Made by a program: the position numbers and the translations under genes. Shown here one piece after another: positions 1 through 8,811 of a stretch of 64,000 bases of DNA (within the stretch, counting starts at the first letter, position 1; every line of letters begins with the position of its first letter). Source of the DNA: [Eubacterium] infirmum (GTDB lineage: Bacteria; Bacillota; Clostridia; Peptostreptococcales; Anaerovoracaceae); contig UGGN01000001.1 of assembly GCA_900450455.1 (NCBI GenBank), positions 1-64,000 on the forward strand. Reading direction: 5' to 3'. The notes below the pieces were generated by a model that searched no databases, had not been told where the DNA came from, and saw nothing but the letters and a program-made list of their open reading frames with translations.

Positions 1-283
1 TTTAAAAAACTTTTCTTCGTATTCATCCGGTAATTCCTTAGGCTTAGTTATAATCCATCCGCTCATATAGTTAATATCTTGTCTATCGCTGTGTATATAT
101 ATTTCATCAAGCCTTTTTTTTAGATATTCAAAACTCCGTCATATTTCTTTCCGGAGCTAAAGAATAATTTAAGTGACTTCTGTTTTTATCGATATCAATA
201 TTTTTAGGATATTTAAGTTCTCTTGATACATGCTTGAGCTGATTATATACAGCATGTTTATTAAACTTTTGATTAGATGCCAT
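1..283 (-). pseudogene. MobV-type relaxase (plasmid recombination protein), 5' part, frameshifted
   Basis: The ATG at 283 has a GAGG ribosome site overlapping the end of the upstream gene. It opens a 51-codon frame that stops at 128-130. The peptide contains IDKNRSHLNYSL, which resembles the N-terminal ID-x-x-R-x-x-x-NY motif of MobV/Pre relaxases. From about 135 downward another frame continues without a stop to the window edge and reads SFEYLKKRLDEIY then GWIITKPKELPDEYE. This matches the next conserved part of the family (the W-V/I-T-x-P-K-x-L-P motif). One base lost or gained around 131-141 explains both halves. The enzyme would nick oriT to start conjugal mobilisation. Seen: the two frames and the motifs. 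Inferred: a single ancestral gene. A sequencing error or programmed frameshifting cannot be excluded, and the 3' part lies outside the window. Confidence 0.7.
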
Positions 284-285
284 AC

Positions 286-621
286 TTACCTCAATCTATA
301 TATTTTTTCAAAAGATATTTGCTTTTTATTAATAGTAATATCTTCACCGTTGAGATTAATAACATAATTTAAAGGATTCTCTTGTATATTGCAATAGTAC
401 ATTAGAAAAGATTCACGGTTATGTTTATCATAATCTGAAGAACCTTGTAATTTTAATATATCTCCATTTGATAATCCTATTTCATATTGATATAGATACT
501 TATATATATCTTGTGATGATATCCTGTGAAGCTTTCTTTTTTTATTGCTATGCAAAATTAATCCTATAATTAAAAGCACAAGAGCCGGTTTAATTAATTT
601 CTTCAAAATATACCAAAACAC
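286..621 (-). CDS. Small membrane protein of the mobile module (111 aa)
   Basis: I chose the GTG at 621 because AAAGGAG lies 7 nt upstream. The longer TTG-initiated frame would place this ribosome site inside the coding region. The protein has a short N-terminal basic stretch, one hydrophobic segment at about residues 10-24 (LIKPALVLLIIGLIL), and a polar, lysine-rich remainder of about 85 residues that is probably cytoplasmic or extracytoplasmic. No family was recognised. It ends 2 nt before the relaxase start and carries that gene's ribosome site, so the two are very likely co-transcribed. A role in mobilisation or in a membrane-linked step of the element is only inferred from position. Confidence 0.6.
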   Translation of the reverse strand: MFWYILKKLIKPALVLLIIGLILHSNKKRKLHRISSQDIYKYLYQYEIGLSNGDILKLQGSSDYDKHNRESFLMYYCNIQENPLNYVINLNGEDITINKKQISFEKIYRLR

Positions 622-644
622 TGTTCTTCTCCTTTTCAATAGAT

Positions 645-1034
645 AAGAGATTAATTTTCACAAAGTGAAAATTTTCCTTGAAAAGCCGTAAGGCTTTTCC
701 CTTAGCATTACAGGCTTAAGGAGCTATGCTGCTTTGGCCGGTAATGCGCTGGGGGTAATCCAAAGGGGGCAGCGCCCCTGCTGGCAACTCGAACTGTCTT
801 CGAGCGACCGATAGGTCGGATATACCATATCTGCCCACCGCAGGTGGGCAGATATGGTATATCTTGTATACGCAAATTGCACGCCCCCTCTATTTAACTG
901 TCTTAAATAGAGCTTATGCAATTTGCAAAGCTGTATAAACATTGAATTATCAATGCTTATACAAAAATACCGAAAGCATTAGCTTTCGGCACACTGACTT
1001 AAACTGTCTTTAAGTCTTGTTTATACTTTCTGAC
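645..1034 (-). ncRNA. Candidate large structured RNA with repeated GACAG pentaloops
   Basis: There is no credible gene here, but the stretch is almost wholly folded. Perfect or near-perfect hairpins lie at 996-1016 (8 bp), 970-989 (8 bp), 932-963 (14 pairs), 872-926 (10-bp outer stem holding a 10-bp hairpin at 888-912), 819-863 (21 bp), 805-818 (5 bp), 788-804 (6 bp), 746-775 (6 bp), 705-747 (7 bp), 680-699 (8 bp) and 653-673 (9 bp). The 5' half is the cleaner part. Three loops (1004-1008, 898-902, 794-798) are identical, reading GACAG on the minus strand inside AAGACAGTT. The one imperfect pair in the 932-963 stem (939/956) is a U-G wobble on the minus strand but an A-C mismatch on the plus strand, which favours minus transcription. 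An extended -10 promoter sits just upstream. Its class is not recognised; ROOL- or GOLLD-like ornate RNAs are the nearest concept. It could instead be a single-strand DNA origin. Confidence 0.6.
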
Positions 1035-1040
1035 ACTAAT

Positions 1041-1049
1041 ACTATATCA
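1041..1049 (-). promoter_or_regulatory. Extended -10 promoter for the structured RNA
   Basis: On the minus strand 1049-1041 reads TG-A-TATAGT, an extended -10 element. No good -35 is seen. Transcription would start near 1034, about 18 nt before the first hairpin. It lies in the AT-rich gap after parB, so the RNA need not depend on the parAB transcript. Confidence 0.45.
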
Positions 1050-1129
1050 CAAGTTTTATGTATTTTTTTGCCTTTTTTTGCTTATGTAAAAAATAACAAA
1101 AAGCTCTATTTTTTGCTATGTTAATTTTT

Positions 1130-1147
1130 TCAAAAATGCATTTTTGA
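1130..1147 (-). terminator. Weak A/T palindrome after parB
   Basis: An 18-nt perfect palindrome centred on TGCA follows the parB stop by about 14 nt and is followed by T-rich sequence on the minus strand. It could be a weak terminator separating parB from the structured RNA, but the stem has only two G-C pairs. Confidence 0.3.
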
Positions 1148-1160
1148 GCAATGTCTATAT

Positions 1161-2345
1161 TTATCTTTCGTTTTCTATTGATGTATCAAAAACATCTATC
1201 TTTTGACTTACTATGTATTTAAGCGCAAGTTCTATATATCTTTGCCGCTCGGATAACTTTACATTCTTTGGAAAAAGCTCATCTGATACATGATATTTTT
1301 TCTTTTCAGCTTTTGCTTTTTTACTTACAGATCTATGCTTTCTCTCTTGCTTTTCTACATTTTCCTGCCCTTGATTAATTACTTCTCTTAAAGCATTCCA
1401 TGGGAAGCTTGCCCTAAGGGGCGGATCTTTCTGCACCTCTTTATACTTATCAATAAGCCCTTTAGCGATTTCTTTTGTCATCTCTTTATTTTCTTTAGTC
1501 ATAATCTCAGATACTTGATCCTGTACCGCTTCCGGAAGCTTAGATATATATTGCACTTCTTCCTGCGTAACCTTACTTCTGTTATATAATCTAACAATTC
1601 CATTTGAACAATTTGCAAGCGCCATCTTTCTTGTTAATGTTCGAGCGGATATACCATATTTCTTAGCAACTTCTTCATCCGTTCGTTTCGAAGTGTCACT
1701 TTGACACTTCGAAAGAGATGTTGAATTTTCAACGTTTTCATTTTTGGAATTTCCAGGACTAAGATTACAGTTTTTATCCTGTACAAGTGCATCATATGTA
1801 GCCTTATATGCTCTTGCAAGCTCTATATCGCTTACTTTTTCTCTTTGGATATTCGACTGATTGATAAGCAGCGTTGCTTCTATATCATCACAGCTTACTA
1901 TGATAGCGTTTACCTTGCTACTTCCTATTTCTTTTAAACACTCAACCCTTGTATGTCCTACAAGGATTTCAAAGTCATTTTCTATAAGCTCTTTATAATG
2001 CTGCACGCACTCTTTAGGTCTAACTATTATAGGGTTAATCTGTCCATAGCTTTTTAAAGAGCCTATCATCTCTTCCCTTTTTTCACCGCTGATTTTTGAA
2101 AAGTGATTTTTAGGAGATTCCGATAATTCCTTTATATCAAGCTCAACAACTTTATCTTTAGCCTTATTAAGGATATTGTCAAAAGCCTTATCATTATTTT
2201 TATTAACGCTACCTAAATCATCAGGTGTAACATCAATCATAAGTTCGCTATACTTACCTGTTATATCGCCCTGTTCAAGAAGTTTTTTGCGTTCTGCTAC
2301 AAGCTTCTTTATCTCTTCTAAATTTTTCCCTGTTTTAAGAGCCAT
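1161..2345 (-). CDS. parB: ParB/Spo0J-family partition protein (394 aa)
   Basis: This is a DNA-binding partition protein that would load on a centromere-like site and act with ParA. A ParB N-terminal nuclease-like domain spans about residues 65-175: a VELDIKELSESPKNHF opening, INPIIVRP, and the GHTRVE box of the family. It is followed by INQSNIQREKVSDIELARAY and a helix-turn-helix stretch around VAKKYGISARTLTRKM. The C-terminal third is lysine-rich and would hold the dimerisation part. A good AAAGGAG site precedes the ATG. The gene follows parA with a 76-codon membrane gene between them. It is longer than chromosomal Spo0J (about 290 aa) because of an N-terminal extension of about 65 residues. 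Plasmid partition is the likely role. Confidence 0.88.
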   Translation of the reverse strand: MALKTGKNLEEIKKLVAERKKLLEQGDITGKYSELMIDVTPDDLGSVNKNNDKAFDNILNKAKDKVVELDIKELSESPKNHFSKISGEKREEMIGSLKSYGQINPIIVRPKECVQHYKELIENDFEILVGHTRVECLKEIGSSKVNAIIVSCDDIEATLLINQSNIQREKVSDIELARAYKATYDALVQDKNCNLSPGNSKNENVENSTSLSKCQSDTSKRTDEEVAKKYGISARTLTRKMALANCSNGIVRLYNRSKVTQEEVQYISKLPEAVQDQVSEIMTKENKEMTKEIAKGLIDKYKEVQKDPPLRASFPWNALREVINQGQENVEKQERKHRSVSKKAKAEKKKYHVSDELFPKNVKLSERQRYIELALKYIVSQKIDVFDTSIENER

Positions 2346-2404
2346 ATTTTTTCTCTCCTTTATGAAATTTATGTAAGCTTTGCAACGATTGTTGCAAGCA
2401 TTTT

Positions 2405-2635
2405 TTATTTAAAAATTATCCAACAAATTACTATTCCAACAGCTACATATAAATATATATCATTATCCTCCATCTTTTCTTCTTGATGATTAGATGAATG
2501 AGAACCTTTATTACTATCGCAAGAGATTATCCTAATTATAATCGTGACCGTAATTAATAAAAAAAAAATCCCCAAAATTGGCAGCACATATTTAGTTAAA
2601 ACCCCTAGAATTTCTGTAAGATTTATATCATTCAT
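2405..2635 (-). CDS. Small membrane protein between parA and parB (76 aa)
   Basis: The ATG at 2635 has AAAGGAG embedded in the last codons of parA, so translation is coupled to it. Two hydrophobic stretches are seen, about residues 10-35 (EILGVLTKYVLPILGIFFLL and on) and 60-75 (YLYVAVGIVICWIIF). A polar, histidine- and serine-rich loop (SNKGSHSSNHQEEK) separates them. No family was recognised. Its place inside the par operon suggests a function tied to maintenance of the element, possibly at the membrane, but that is inference. Confidence 0.65.
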   Translation of the reverse strand: MNDINLTEILGVLTKYVLPILGIFFLLITVTIIIRIISCDSNKGSHSSNHQEEKMEDNDIYLYVAVGIVICWIIFK

Positions 2636-2639
2636 TTCA

Positions 2640-3425
2640 CTAATCTCCTTTACTTAACAATTCTTCAGATAGTTTCTTAAATGCTATTGCAGCTTTACTT
2701 TTAGGCGAATAATCTCCTATAGAAAGTGATTCAAACTCACTTTCAGGTATTGCGATTGCCTTTGGAATAAGTGTGTTAAAAATATATACATCTTCTCCCC
2801 AGGAAACCTTAATAACTTCATTCATCAATTTATGAAAATTAGTCTTTTCTTGTACCTTATTTATTATTACTCCTGCTGCTTTTAAATCTTTGTTAAATTC
2901 ATTTTTTATTTGCTCAATAACCTTATTTATTGTAAAAATTCCATCAGAGCTTGCTACTTCCGGCTCAGTTATAATTAGATATTCATCTGAAGCTACAAGT
3001 GCATTTTGAAAATCAAGATTAACCGACGGAGCATTGTCTATTAATACATAATCATAATTATTTTTTTCTCTTAAAGTTAATATGTATTTTTTTAGTAGCT
3101 TTTCTCTACCCATAGCAGACATTGCATTCATGCTCCAGTACTCTTTTCGTATATCGCAAGTAATTATATCAAGATTATCTTTAACTTTATAAATTGGATC
3201 ATTTAGCAATTCCTGATTTGCCATTATTGAGTTTAGTACATCGACAATATTTTCTTTTATAGTGTTCTCTTTTTCTATACCTGCAAATTTTGTTAGATTT
3301 CCCTGTCCATCAAAATCTATTAACAGCGTATTCTTTCCTGCTTTCGCAAGCTCAGCTCCCAAGTTAAAAGTTACTGTTGTTTTTCCAACGCCGCCTTTGT
3401 AGTTAATTATAGAGATTACTTTCAC
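2640..3425 (-). CDS. parA: ParA/Soj-family partition ATPase (261 aa)
   Basis: This is a Walker-type partition ATPase. The deviant Walker A box KGGVGKTT is at residues 10-17 with both lysines. DFDGQGNLT follows (switch/A' motif), and LIDNAPSVN is the Walker B region. The length is typical of small plasmid or chromosomal ParA without an N-terminal HTH, so autoregulation would need another DNA binder. I used the GTG at 3425, which has GAGGAGG 7-8 nt upstream. It lies upstream of the 76-aa membrane gene and parB in one operon. With ParB it should secure segregation of the replicon. Confidence 0.92.
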   Translation of the reverse strand: MKVISIINYKGGVGKTTVTFNLGAELAKAGKNTLLIDFDGQGNLTKFAGIEKENTIKENIVDVLNSIMANQELLNDPIYKVKDNLDIITCDIRKEYWSMNAMSAMGREKLLKKYILTLREKNNYDYVLIDNAPSVNLDFQNALVASDEYLIITEPEVASSDGIFTINKVIEQIKNEFNKDLKAAGVIINKVQEKTNFHKLMNEVIKVSWGEDVYIFNTLIPKAIAIPESEFESLSIGDYSPKSKAAIAFKKLSEELLSKGD

Positions 3426-3454
3426 TTTCTTTTCCTCCTCAAAAATCTGTAATT

Positions 3455-3796
3455 TTAAAAATCTGTAGTTATCCCAAGCTCTTTAGCAAGGCTATATATC
3501 CACTTGTTTATTTCAGCTTCTATTTCCGCTTTTTCAAACGCCTCTATTTTTATCCTTTTATAAAAATAGTTCCATACTTTTTTCTGCATATCCGGATCTA
3601 CAGCATGGCTGAAGGTTTCTTCTATCGTTTTTAAATGCCTTATTCTAAGCTCATATTCCTTTTGCCTTTCTAAATCAACATCCCTATTCATATTCTGCCA
3701 TCTGTTATACGCATCAGTTGCCGCTTTAATCTCGTAATAGGCGGCTGCAAAACTCCTTGCAGCTTTCTTAGCTTCCTTACATAATATTACTTTCAT
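3455..3796 (-). CDS. Helical hypothetical protein of the module (113 aa)
   Basis: A ribosome site (GGGTAAGGG) lies shortly before the ATG. The protein is highly charged and predicted almost wholly helical (AAKKAARSFAAAYYEIKAA, then long E/K/R-rich helices). It has no membrane segment and no motif I recognise. It sits about 30 nt upstream of parA and 22 nt downstream of the 133-aa gene, in the same operon. Function unknown. Confidence 0.6.
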   Translation of the reverse strand: MKVILCKEAKKAARSFAAAYYEIKAATDAYNRWQNMNRDVDLERQKEYELRIRHLKTIEETFSHAVDPDMQKKVWNYFYKRIKIEAFEKAEIEAEINKWIYSLAKELGITTDF

Positions 3797-3818
3797 AAGC
3801 TGCCCTTACCCTTTCATT

Positions 3819-4220
3819 TTATTCTCTGTGCAAAATGTCATATAAATTTTTCCCTAATAAATTAAAGGCAATATTTTTTACTAAATCAGTTTCAAGTTTC
3901 ATCATTTCCTTTGATGATAGCCTGCAAGGTATATATATTTTTTTAACAATACTTTTAATCAATAAGTAACGGATATCTTCATCTATTTTCTCTAATGCAT
4001 CTGATACCGCTTGAAATTTTTCTTTTATGCTCTTTTCAAAAACAACACATTCATTAATTTTGTTTTGATATCCTGCGTTTCCTGAGATCCCCTTATTTAT
4101 AGCAGTTTCACTAATACCTTTAAGACTATACGCTTCCATCTTCATTTCATTTAGCCTTACAATAGCCATGTAATATGCAGATATATTACACATAACAAGA
4201 TTATAGATCTCTCTTTTCAT
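3819..4220 (-). CDS. Helical protein with weak likeness to DUF1492/ArpU-type regulators (133 aa)
   Basis: The ATG at 4220 was chosen because AAGGAA lies 7-10 nt upstream; the frame could extend 14 codons further. It overlaps the end of the upstream HTH gene by 20 nt, which suggests translational coupling. The pattern (an N-terminal helix with RLNEMKMEAYSLKG, a glycine stretch, then KINECVVFEKSIKEKF and DEDIRYLLIKSIV) recalls phage and element proteins of the DUF1492/RinA/ArpU group. The usual C-terminal HTH is not evident. This family link is a weak inference. Confidence 0.5.
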   Translation of the reverse strand: MKREIYNLVMCNISAYYMAIVRLNEMKMEAYSLKGISETAINKGISGNAGYQNKINECVVFEKSIKEKFQAVSDALEKIDEDIRYLLIKSIVKKIYIPCRLSSKEMMKLETDLVKNIAFNLLGKNLYDILHRE

Positions 4221-4473
4221 AGCATGCTTCCTTGACGACATCCCAACTATCTTCGCCCACATATTTTTTTATTTCGGAAACTATAGCTTTTACAGGACTA
4301 TATTTTACATATTGTCTATTTTGATATTCCTCAGCTGTAAGCCCCCTCTTAAGTTCCGTATAGAGTATGCTTCTTGTAATGTTTAATTTCTTTTGAATTA
4401 TTGTGAGCGAAAACCCATCTGATAGTAAAAACTGTAATTTTTTTCTGTTGTCTAAATCAAAAAACTTATTCAT
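4201..4473 (-). CDS. Small helix-turn-helix protein (90 aa)
   Basis: An AAAGGAG site precedes the ATG. Residues about 10-45 form an HTH (QFLLSDGFSLTIIQKKLNI then TRSILYTELKRG), like the N-terminal DNA-binding part of IS30-type or Fis/homeodomain-like proteins. The rest is short and basic. It follows rep by 18 nt and overlaps the next gene. It is probably a regulator of the rep-par operon, or the remnant of a longer DNA-binding protein; the sequence does not decide. Confidence 0.6.
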   Translation of the reverse strand: MNKFFDLDNRKKLQFLLSDGFSLTIIQKKLNITRSILYTELKRGLTAEEYQNRQYVKYSPVKAIVSEIKKYVGEDSWDVVKEACYEKRDL

Positions 4474-4491
4474 TTACTTTCTCCTTTAAAT

Positions 4492-5085
4492 TTATTCATC
4501 TTCATCTGCAAGCTTAAGAATTAAATCATAATCGCTAATATCATATTCTTTACCCATAGCTTTATCTAAATCTAATTTTTCTATAATACCTTCAAGATTA
4601 ACTATCTCATTTTTTAGATGATTATATTCGTAGTTAGTAAGTTCGACTTTATTATATAGACCATACTTTTTATAGTTTGTATCTATTTTTCCGGCTGTTA
4701 AGAGTTGCTGCTTCATATTGTTATATTTAAGCCTTTTAGCATCAGCTTGTGTGCTGCCTTTTCCAGTATTATTAATAACGTAAGGTACAAGTAGATTAAC
4801 AGAGTATTCATCTTCAACTTTTTCTATAAGACCATTACTTAAAAAGTATGTGAAAGCTTGCCCTACCATTTCTACCTCTTCTCCTATGTCTTTAGCAAGA
4901 AGTGCTATATATGGTACTTCACCGAGCTTTGGTACTTTTAAAATTCCTTGCTCCTCTGTTGCAAGTGCGCATAGCTCCATATAGATTACAACAAAGTGAT
5001 AACCGTATACTGGGATATGCTTCATATTTCTGATAACCTCTTGTCTAAAGAAGTTGTTTATTAATCGATAGTAAAAATACTTCAT
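4492..5085 (-). CDS. Replication initiator with phage replisome-organizer N-terminal domain (197 aa)
   Basis: I chose the ATG at 5085, 5 nt after AAGGTGG; the longer GTG frame begins inside that ribosome site. Residues 1-100 fit the replisome-organizer / RepA N-terminal winged-helix pattern: YFYYRLINNFFRQEVIR, then VVIYMELCALATEEQG, then LAKDIGEEVEMVGQAFTYF and LSNGLIEKVED. The C-terminal half is charged and helical. This family binds origin DNA and recruits helicase in phages and low-copy plasmids. It is the first gene of the minus-strand operon and is preceded by a promoter and a large leader hairpin. Confidence 0.75.
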   Translation of the reverse strand: MKYFYYRLINNFFRQEVIRNMKHIPVYGYHFVVIYMELCALATEEQGILKVPKLGEVPYIALLAKDIGEEVEMVGQAFTYFLSNGLIEKVEDEYSVNLLVPYVINNTGKGSTQADAKRLKYNNMKQQLLTAGKIDTNYKKYGLYNKVELTNYEYNHLKNEIVNLEGIIEKLDLDKAMGKEYDISDYDLILKLADEDE

Positions 5086-5140
5086 ATAAACCACCTTAGA
5101 TCTCTTATTACTTTATTATTTTTCTCTTTTCAAAAAGTAA

Positions 5141-5214
5141 AAGTTAGAGTTATAGTTATAACTATGTGGAGAAATCTCCACTTGGTTTGAAAATCATAAC
5201 TAAAACTCTAACTT
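5141..5214 (-). promoter_or_regulatory. Nested inverted repeat in the rep leader
   Basis: Arms 5141-5151 and 5204-5214 are an exact 11-bp inverted repeat. Inside lie a second pair (5154-5159 with 5196-5201) and a hairpin GTGGAG-AAAT-CTCCAC (5166-5181). It lies between the rep promoter and the rep start, so it could be a leader RNA structure controlling rep, an antisense-RNA target, or part of the origin. I see no U-tract that would make it a simple terminator. Confidence 0.5.
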
Positions 5215-5231
5215 ATTATTTAGTGTTTATC

Positions 5232-5259
5232 ATATTAAATTGTATGTTTGACTGCTCAA
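5232..5259 (-). promoter_or_regulatory. Putative promoter of the rep-par operon
   Basis: On the minus strand TTGAGC (5259-5254) and TAATAT (5237-5232) are separated by 16 nt. Transcription would start near 5225 and run through the leader inverted repeat into rep. Confidence 0.4.
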
Positions 5260-5364
5260 ACTTAGTAATTCCAACGTGTCAGAATTTTAATAGATTTTCA
5301 ATTCCTATTTAATTCTAACATTCAGCCAAAAAATCTTTTTGATTTTTCTTTTTTTTGAACCTCA
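5260..5364. other. AT-rich boundary between mobile module and chromosome
   Basis: The 5086-5498 gap has no gene. Besides the rep leader and two promoters it holds an imperfect inverted repeat (about 5281-5293 with 5305-5316) and a long T-rich run (5333-5357). Composition and gene direction both change here. No recognisable attachment-site duplication can be shown, because the other end of the module is outside the window. Confidence 0.3.
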
Positions 5365-7866: not shown

Positions 7867-8811
7867 CTATATCTCAGATTTATATTTGTTGAACTCCGCC
7901 TTGTTGGCCCAAACAAAGTGATTAGGCCTGATCTCCATCCACTTCGGCTTGTCTACCGAGTAATCGTGCTGTGATGGATCGTAAACCTTCAGCACCTTCT
8001 GCTTCTCATGCTCCGGGTCAGGCATCGGTATGGCCGATAGCAGCGCCTGAGTGTAAGGATGCATAGGATATGCGAATAGCTCCTCAGTATCTGCAAGCTC
8101 AACGAGAACTCCCTTGTGTATTACACAGATTCTGTCGCATATAAATCTCATAACTGAAAGGTCATGTGAAATGAACAGATAGGTGAGCCCCATCTCCCTC
8201 TGCAGCTTCGCCATTAGGTTCAAAACCTGCGCTCTTATTGAAACGTCAAGTGCCGAGATAGGCTCGTCCGCAATGATGAACTCAGGGTTCATAACCATGG
8301 CTCTTGCGATACCGATACGCTGTCTCTGACCACCCGAGAATTCGTGCGGAAACCTGCTTGCAAACTCGGGAAGAAGCCCTACAGAGTCCAGCGCCTCTGA
8401 GATTATTCTGTTGCGCTCTTCCTTGTTGAGCTTCTTAGGCAGGTTTAGAAGTCCCTCAGCGATGATATAGTCAACCTTGGCCCGCTCGTTAAGCGAAGCC
8501 ATAGGGTCCTGGAAAATCATCTGAATCTTGCGTGTTACCTCTTTATCCTTTTCCTTGGATATTTTACCGCTTATGCGCTCACCATCGTAGATGATTTCTC
8601 CGCCGGCCGTAGGATTTATACGAATTATAGCTCGTCCGATTGTCGTCTTACCTGAACCGGACTCTCCAACCAAGCCAAAGGTTTCACCCTTATATATCTG
8701 GAAGCTTGCCTTATCAACGGCTGTAAACGGATTTCTGCGTGAACCGAACTTGACCGTGAGGTCGCGAACGTCGACGAGAACCTTTTTTTCTTTTTTCTCT
8801 TTTTCGTTCAT
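7867..8811 (-). CDS. oppF: Oligopeptide ABC transporter ATP-binding protein, OppF type (314 aa)
   Basis: This is one of two ATPases that power peptide uptake. Walker [11 protein letters not shown]-loop [16 protein letters not shown], signature [15 protein letters not shown], Walker [13 protein letters not shown] and the switch histidine FISHDLSV are all present. A C-terminal oligopeptide/dipeptide extension contains [12 protein letters not shown]. The ATG at 8811 follows GGAGG by 7 nt. It begins 1 nt after oppD stops. The last gene of the opp operon, it ends in a strong terminator. Confidence 0.92.

Follow-up and report, generated by a model that had tools for sequence, protein, structure and literature searches.

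The segment between parB and a mobilisation gene in this stretch of DNA (the window, 64 kb in all) raises the question of what an array of hairpins set almost end to end does on a mobile element. The preliminary description took it for a possible large structured RNA of the ornate ROOL or GOLLD kind. Our analysis favours another answer, with a probability of roughly 0.7: the region is an extended origin of transfer (oriT) of a MobV integrative and conjugative element, with unusual structural elaboration. Of these two readings, a new ornate RNA is the less likely.

The hairpin cluster and its host element

The inverted-repeat listing contained 11 hairpins at 653-1016, almost head-to-tail and in the majority perfect, which confirms the earlier account of a cluster of about 390 nt with at least eleven mostly perfect hairpins, including the nested arrangement at 872-926, and its coordinates. 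When perfect hairpins were defined by a stem of at least 8 bp and a loop of 3-8, five fell in the tile 601-1000, compared with a mean of 0.11 per tile across 318 tiles of 400 nt from the whole 64-kb window; hairpin density at 653-1016 was far above that of the rest of the window. The minimum free energy z-scores of 640-1040 against dinucleotide shuffles were −13.9 (minus strand) and −13.5 (plus strand) for RNA, and −15.3 (minus) and −15.6 (plus) for DNA. The observed fold energy was reached by none of the shuffles, on either strand, as RNA or as DNA. The covariance-model search of Rfam that the preliminary description had suggested found no family at or above the gathering threshold in the window, ROOL and GOLLD included. 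Matches below the threshold were chance-like, e.g., mir-6644 on the long palindrome on both strands, as a perfect stem would yield by chance. The features of the structured region are as follows.

653-747, plus strand: distal hairpins H11 (653-673), H10 (680-699) and H9 (705-747); sequence not conserved, a comparable hairpin run in Mogibacterium timidum
760-784, plus strand: H8, G/C-rich hairpin; by eye, some plasmid oriTs have similar GGGG..CCCC hairpins 5' of their nick
788-804, plus strand: H7, A-CTGTC-T pentaloop hairpin; in M. timidum the loop is the same and the stem compensated
805-818, plus strand: H6, CGACC/GGTCG hairpin, invariant in M. timidum
819-863, plus strand: H5, perfect 21-bp stem directly 5' of the predicted nick, IR1/IR3-like; two compensatory changes and no broken pairs in M. 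timidum
856-871 (arms 857-871), plus strand: predicted oriT nic core, GGTATATCTTG followed by TATAC, with the inverted repeat GTATA-TCTTG-TATAC; matches plasmid oriTs, predicted nick 866/867
867-937, plus strand: H4, branched post-nick domain; outer stem 872-881/917-926, inner CTGTC-loop hairpin 888-912
867-872/932-937, plus strand: possible closing pairs of H4; 6 bp alone, could be chance, compete with H3
931-1016, plus strand: H3 (931-964), H2 (968-991) and H1 (996-1016, A-CTGTC-T loop), on the leading side of the predicted nick
1032-1054, minus strand: conserved ACTTGTG-(9 nt)-TAGTGTC, containing the promoter-like match TG-A-TATAGT; common to the window and M. timidum, not a scored promoter

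Hairpins with the A-CTGTC-T pentaloop (A-GACAG-U on the other strand) occurred three times in the window (788-804, 888-912 and 996-1016) and flank the predicted nick on both sides. M. timidum has two hairpins with this invariant loop (locus L020, about 8591-8609 and 8787-8809), and CTGTC/GACAG hairpins were absent from the other ParB-bearing elements (L056-L061). An unpaired G-run and C-run at 751-760 and 881-887 of the plus strand have counterparts at the matching places of M. timidum; they could form a pseudoknot joining the H8 side with the H4 junction.

The region occurs identically in three places of the 1.9-Mb genome, each belonging to a copy of the same element. At C2:436051-464551 the assembly runs through a whole copy, a conjugative element of about 28.5 kb. 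The part of the element within the window contains the following.

1-5330: element portion inside the window, between the contig break (1) and the end of the element (near 5330)
1-286, minus strand: 5' portion of the gene for the MobV-type relaxase, with a frameshift in this copy as assembled; an intact copy (267 aa) is at L015:11097-11900
286-639, minus strand: 117-aa ORF with no Pfam match, separating the structured region from mob
1161-2345, minus strand: parB (ParB_N), on the predicted leading side
2640-3425, minus strand: parA (AAA_31)
4492-5094, minus strand: replication-organiser-like gene (Phage_rep_org_N), left end of the element

On the right the region adjoins parB; on the left the 117-aa ORF (286-639) comes first, and only then the MobV-type relaxase gene. 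The relaxase matched Pfam Mob_Pre (E 6e-23) and scored 89.8 bits with the NCBIfam MobV model, just below its cut-off of 100. In two of the three assembled copies (window 1-286 and L014 10736-11538) mob is frameshifted near a T run, through either a sequencing error or real inactivation. The element also encodes the ATPases VirB4 (nearest model: mycoplasma ICE, Mbov_0397) and VirD4, a Toprim primase-like protein and, near its right end, an IS30-family transposase. This transposase (L073:14184-15281) was the only recombinase seen in the element, whose ends, near C2:436051 and C2:464551, carry apparent imperfect inverted repeats AATGT..GGAATT (by eye). The element is flanked by target duplications of 13-14 bp, much longer than is usual for elements of the IS30 type. 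Shared 13-14-bp repeats match the left flank of one copy to the right flank of another, and contigs break inside the element; the crosswise pairing points to recombination between copies or an assembly join error.

Among 350 genomes of the same family, blastn found one clear relative of the region, in Mogibacterium timidum ATCC 33093 (79% over 122 nt). The covariance model matched the window's genome and M. timidum only among 347 family genomes, and a pattern search of 84,980 genomes returned 11 matches, with a like fold in M. timidum only. Comparison of the region with plasmids and phages by blastn gave no match, that of the short core with plasmids gave chance matches only, and searches of viral contigs for the structure patterns, ParB and MobV gave none. 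Weak blastn matches at L017-L019 and a pattern match at L021 were set aside as unrelated, from their context or by eye. The gene order in M. timidum is alike: rep, parA, parB, structured region, mob and surface proteins, which we read from their sequence as Cna-B-type. The relaxases are 53% and the ParBs 39% identical. Beyond an IS30-like transposase, the same M. timidum locus has a second relaxase, of the MobL family (L020 15196-16542).

From H1 to H8, order and junctions are kept in M. timidum and many stems are different; H1-H3 appear in the same order with diverged stems. In the alignable core, all 29 pairs form in both sequences and the five pairs that vary are all changed on both sides. 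This compensation was equalled by 15 of 500 shuffles, and sliding the partners abolished pairing. Covariation was judged on a single homologue, with every variable core pair compensated, and the evidence for conservation comes from two distinct sequences only, those of the window and M. timidum. On this evidence, the preliminary description is partly supported: the region is structured, conserved and non-coding, lies on a mobile element and has no Rfam match.

The predicted nic core and MobV plasmid origins of transfer

The oriT of pMV158 consists of the IR1/IR3 hairpin, the nick TAGTGTG/TTA (the slash marks the nick) and the IR2 arms around the nick (PMC5863519, PMC5090054). The plasmid relaxases closest to that of the element were of the MobV type. 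In five of the six plasmids first read, GGTATAWCTTGCTAYACC stood just upstream of mobV, following a hairpin and lying between inverted-repeat arms; the sixth had the related core GGTATACCGTGTTATACC. Eight further plasmids were divided between four with the same layout and related cores and four in which a simple repeat search gave no match. The consensus GGTATAWCTTG is the mobV-upstream core in rumen, C. difficile and Peptostreptococcaceae plasmids. The window's GGTATATCTTG matches it at 11 of 11 positions, once in 64 kb (0.06 expected), and GGTATATCTTG/TATAC is placed directly at the end of the 21-bp stem H5. In M. timidum the corresponding sequence is CCATATCTTG/TATGAC, with the inverted repeat CATA-TCTTG-TATG. 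The repeat flanking the nick therefore changes as a pair, GTATA/TATAC in the window versus CATA/TATG in M. timidum, which is a compensatory change.

The match was also sought in both directions. A covariance model (R1), built from the window and M. timidum only and run on 21 plasmid and element loci, returned one match in 94 kb (E 0.0095), and this was the mobV-upstream oriT of pRGI00631 in the right orientation. Conversely, an nhmmer profile of eight plasmid oriTs had its best match at 848-871 of the window, plus strand (E 0.09 in 83 kb, comprising the window and the M. timidum locus); it did not recover M. timidum. These reciprocal E-values are modest, and their weight lies in both pointing to the same 16 bases beside a MobV gene. 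An adjoining MobV/Mob_Pre relaxase gene, a hairpin 5' of the predicted nick, a flanking inverted repeat and a shared nic core, features of a MobV oriT, were found here. The MOBV1 nick TAGTG(T/C)G/TTA was not: ATAGTGTG is absent from 601-1100 on either strand. The TAGTGTC near 1034 (1032-1038, minus strand) was considered as a MobV nick and set aside because arms around it are not clear and comparison with the plasmids indicates 857-871. By alignment to the pMV158 type (PMC5863519, PMC5090054), the nick is most likely at 866/867.

The window thus resembles the MobV plasmid oriTs (pMV158/MOBV1 and the GGTATAWCTTG/CTAYACC variant) in its adjoining mobV, its hairpin 5' of the nick, the flanking arms and a predicted nick in an unpaired linker. 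It differs from them in its structured surroundings of about 400 nt, its CTGTC-loop hairpins and the placement of the predicted oriT on the strand opposite to mob. Several of the differences count against an oriT: the putative nic is not the canonical MOBV1 TAGTGTG/TTA and lacks the C that follows the nick in the plasmid variant, the long perfect stem lacks the 3-nt bulge typical of pMV158 IR3, and the matches are short. Known oriT cores are also far shorter than this region, e.g., 42 bp in IMESag-rpsI (PMC5090054), and nicking can be explained without the distal hairpins. Nevertheless, since the core matches a MobV oriT in sequence, architecture and gene context, the proposal that the region is primarily an ornate RNA of the ROOL or GOLLD kind was not upheld.

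The structure, its conservation, the match to MobV oriTs and the gene context were computed; the nick position, the direction of transfer and every biochemical step are extrapolated from them. In the proposed course of events, the MobV-type relaxase would recognise the inverted repeats at 819-871 and nick the plus strand, most likely at 866/867. The plus strand would then be transferred 5' to 3', with the hairpin-rich leading DNA and parB/parA entering first and mob last. All three of parB, parA and rep are minus-strand genes, so the transferred plus strand would be their template, which fits the usual gene orientation of leading regions (PMC11541004). The DNA fold places the nick site in an unpaired linker between the H5 and H4 domains. 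On the transferred single strand, H5 and H4 would fold on either side of it and may position the relaxase for cutting and subsequently, in the recipient, for rejoining of the strand. The leading hairpins H1-H3 are a candidate sso or primer site, where synthesis of the second strand probably begins, in the role of a single-strand origin; the A-CTGTC-T hairpins (H1, H4 inner and H7) probably bind an accessory protein or primase.

Strand polarity and RNA readings

Which strand the structure serves was approached through wobble pairs, fold energies and transcription signals. In the 932-963 stem the irregular pair reads G.U in the minus strand and A.C in the plus strand, in agreement with the earlier claim. 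The internal wobble pairs of the two sequences all belonged to the minus strand (3 to 0), a tiny count; this leans towards the minus strand, not the predicted transferred strand, and is a point against the oriT. The fold energies favour neither strand in the window, and the conserved stems are as compatible with folded single-stranded DNA as with RNA. The extended −10 proposed earlier, TG-A-TATAGT, is present at 1049-1041 of the minus strand; as a promoter it fared less well, having no matching −35 and not being listed by the consensus scan, which found no more promoters than in shuffles. Its register is not kept in M. timidum, where ACTTGTG-(9 nt)-TAGTGTC is kept instead. Terminator-like minus-strand sites are internal (992-967 and 778-766). 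Since mob lies downstream, a minus-strand transcript may well exist.

Such a transcript could act in more than one way. It is rather unlikely, in our estimate, that the region is oriT DNA whose minus-strand transcript forms a structured 5' leader of the mob/transfer operon and controls read-through or translation, e.g., by binding the relaxase. The mob and transfer genes do lie downstream in the same direction, the two internal terminator-like hairpins and the wobble polarity would suit a leader, and in pMV158 the oriT and the promoters of mob overlap, with MobM acting as a repressor of its own gene (PMC5863519); however, the 117-aa ORF intervenes between leader and mob, and in MobV elements with TAGTGTG nicks the nick strand folds better in every case. 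A dual use of the same 400 nt is similarly doubtful: an oriT on the transferred strand together with a large structured minus-strand RNA that would share the A-GACAG-U loops and bind the relaxosome or control the transfer operon.

A free-standing large structured RNA, starting near 1034 on the minus strand and acting in trans for the element, is distinctly unlikely. It would account for the strong minus-strand fold (z −13.9), the compensatory changes, the internal wobbles, all of them on the minus strand, and the promoter-like TG-A-TATAGT just upstream. It also has a precedent in sgm-sRNA, an RNA encoded beside the oriT of Salmonella Genomic Island 1 (SGI1) and needed for transfer (PMC9299015), although SGI1 has a tyrosine-recombinase-like mobilisation protein and no MobV relaxase, so the relation is one of analogy only. 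Against this RNA, the oriT explains the core better, there is no −35, the −10 register is not conserved, no convincing terminator was found at the 3' end, the terminator-like sites being internal, and Rfam gave no match. ROOL and GOLLD are likewise large, densely folded and found on mobile DNA, but no covariance-model match to them was obtained here and the core is explained by an oriT. Lastly, a functionless palindrome cluster produced by chance or decay, e.g., nested repeats left by insertions, is highly improbable: only two distinct sequences are known, yet z is about −14, helix order and loops are kept while stems diverge, and the variable core pairs are compensated to a degree that few shuffles equalled.

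Comparison with transfer origins elsewhere

The reading as an extended oriT was compared with other MobV genes of the bacterial family, several of which have TAGTGTG/TTA oriTs. These oriTs too are surrounded by ornate folding over about 400 nt (z −7 to −19). In this class, the bases just past the nick pair 100-145 nt downstream and close a branched domain, and the nested three-way arrangement at 872-926 of the window takes the same post-nick place. M. timidum has an equivalent post-nick stem of 8 bp, and the other MobV elements have stems of 8-17 bp there. The nick strand folded better in 7 of 7 loci of the TAGTGTG class, several of which are closely related. The oriTs at L098 and L101 share with the predicted one in the window a place upstream of mob, on the strand opposite to this gene. 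The family oriTs at L096, L098, L101, L104 and L109 share with the window the multi-hairpin fold of about 400 nt and the branched post-nick domain; they differ in their TAGTGTG/TTA core, in having other stems and in that no CTGTC-loop hairpins were seen, and no sequence similarity to the window was found outside the core. Three small plasmids were also folded. L077 gave a z of −8.1, and L080 (−0.4) and L081 (−1.8) were weak; as these two have no strong surrounding fold, ornate surroundings are not general to MobV oriTs.

The single-strand origins sso1 of ICEBs1 and sso of pBAA1 and the Frpo/ssi single-stranded promoters likewise have several stem-loops next to oriT or downstream of it, on the strand that is transferred. 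The conserved loop motif of the ssoA type, TAGCG(A/T), was absent from the region. The sso of ICEBs1 is located downstream of oriT, a placement like that of the leading hairpins H1-H3, and for sso function the stem-loops matter more than the sequence (PMC4595007). If the extended oriT is read correctly, ornate intergenic hairpin arrays of conjugative elements may not be RNAs but origins of transfer, and the discovery of structured RNAs could err on this account. Under this reading, a branched post-nick domain is to be expected in MobV elements and, in the window's group, also repeated hairpins with one invariant pentaloop. On the transferred strand, such domains and hairpins would be read as signals for rejoining or for priming of the second strand. 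Large multi-hairpin oriT regions were also observed at L096, L098, L101, L104, L109 and L135, in another class of MobV elements; this class has a close relative in the Enterococcus faecalis records LR962153 and LR962508 (84% over about 377 nt).
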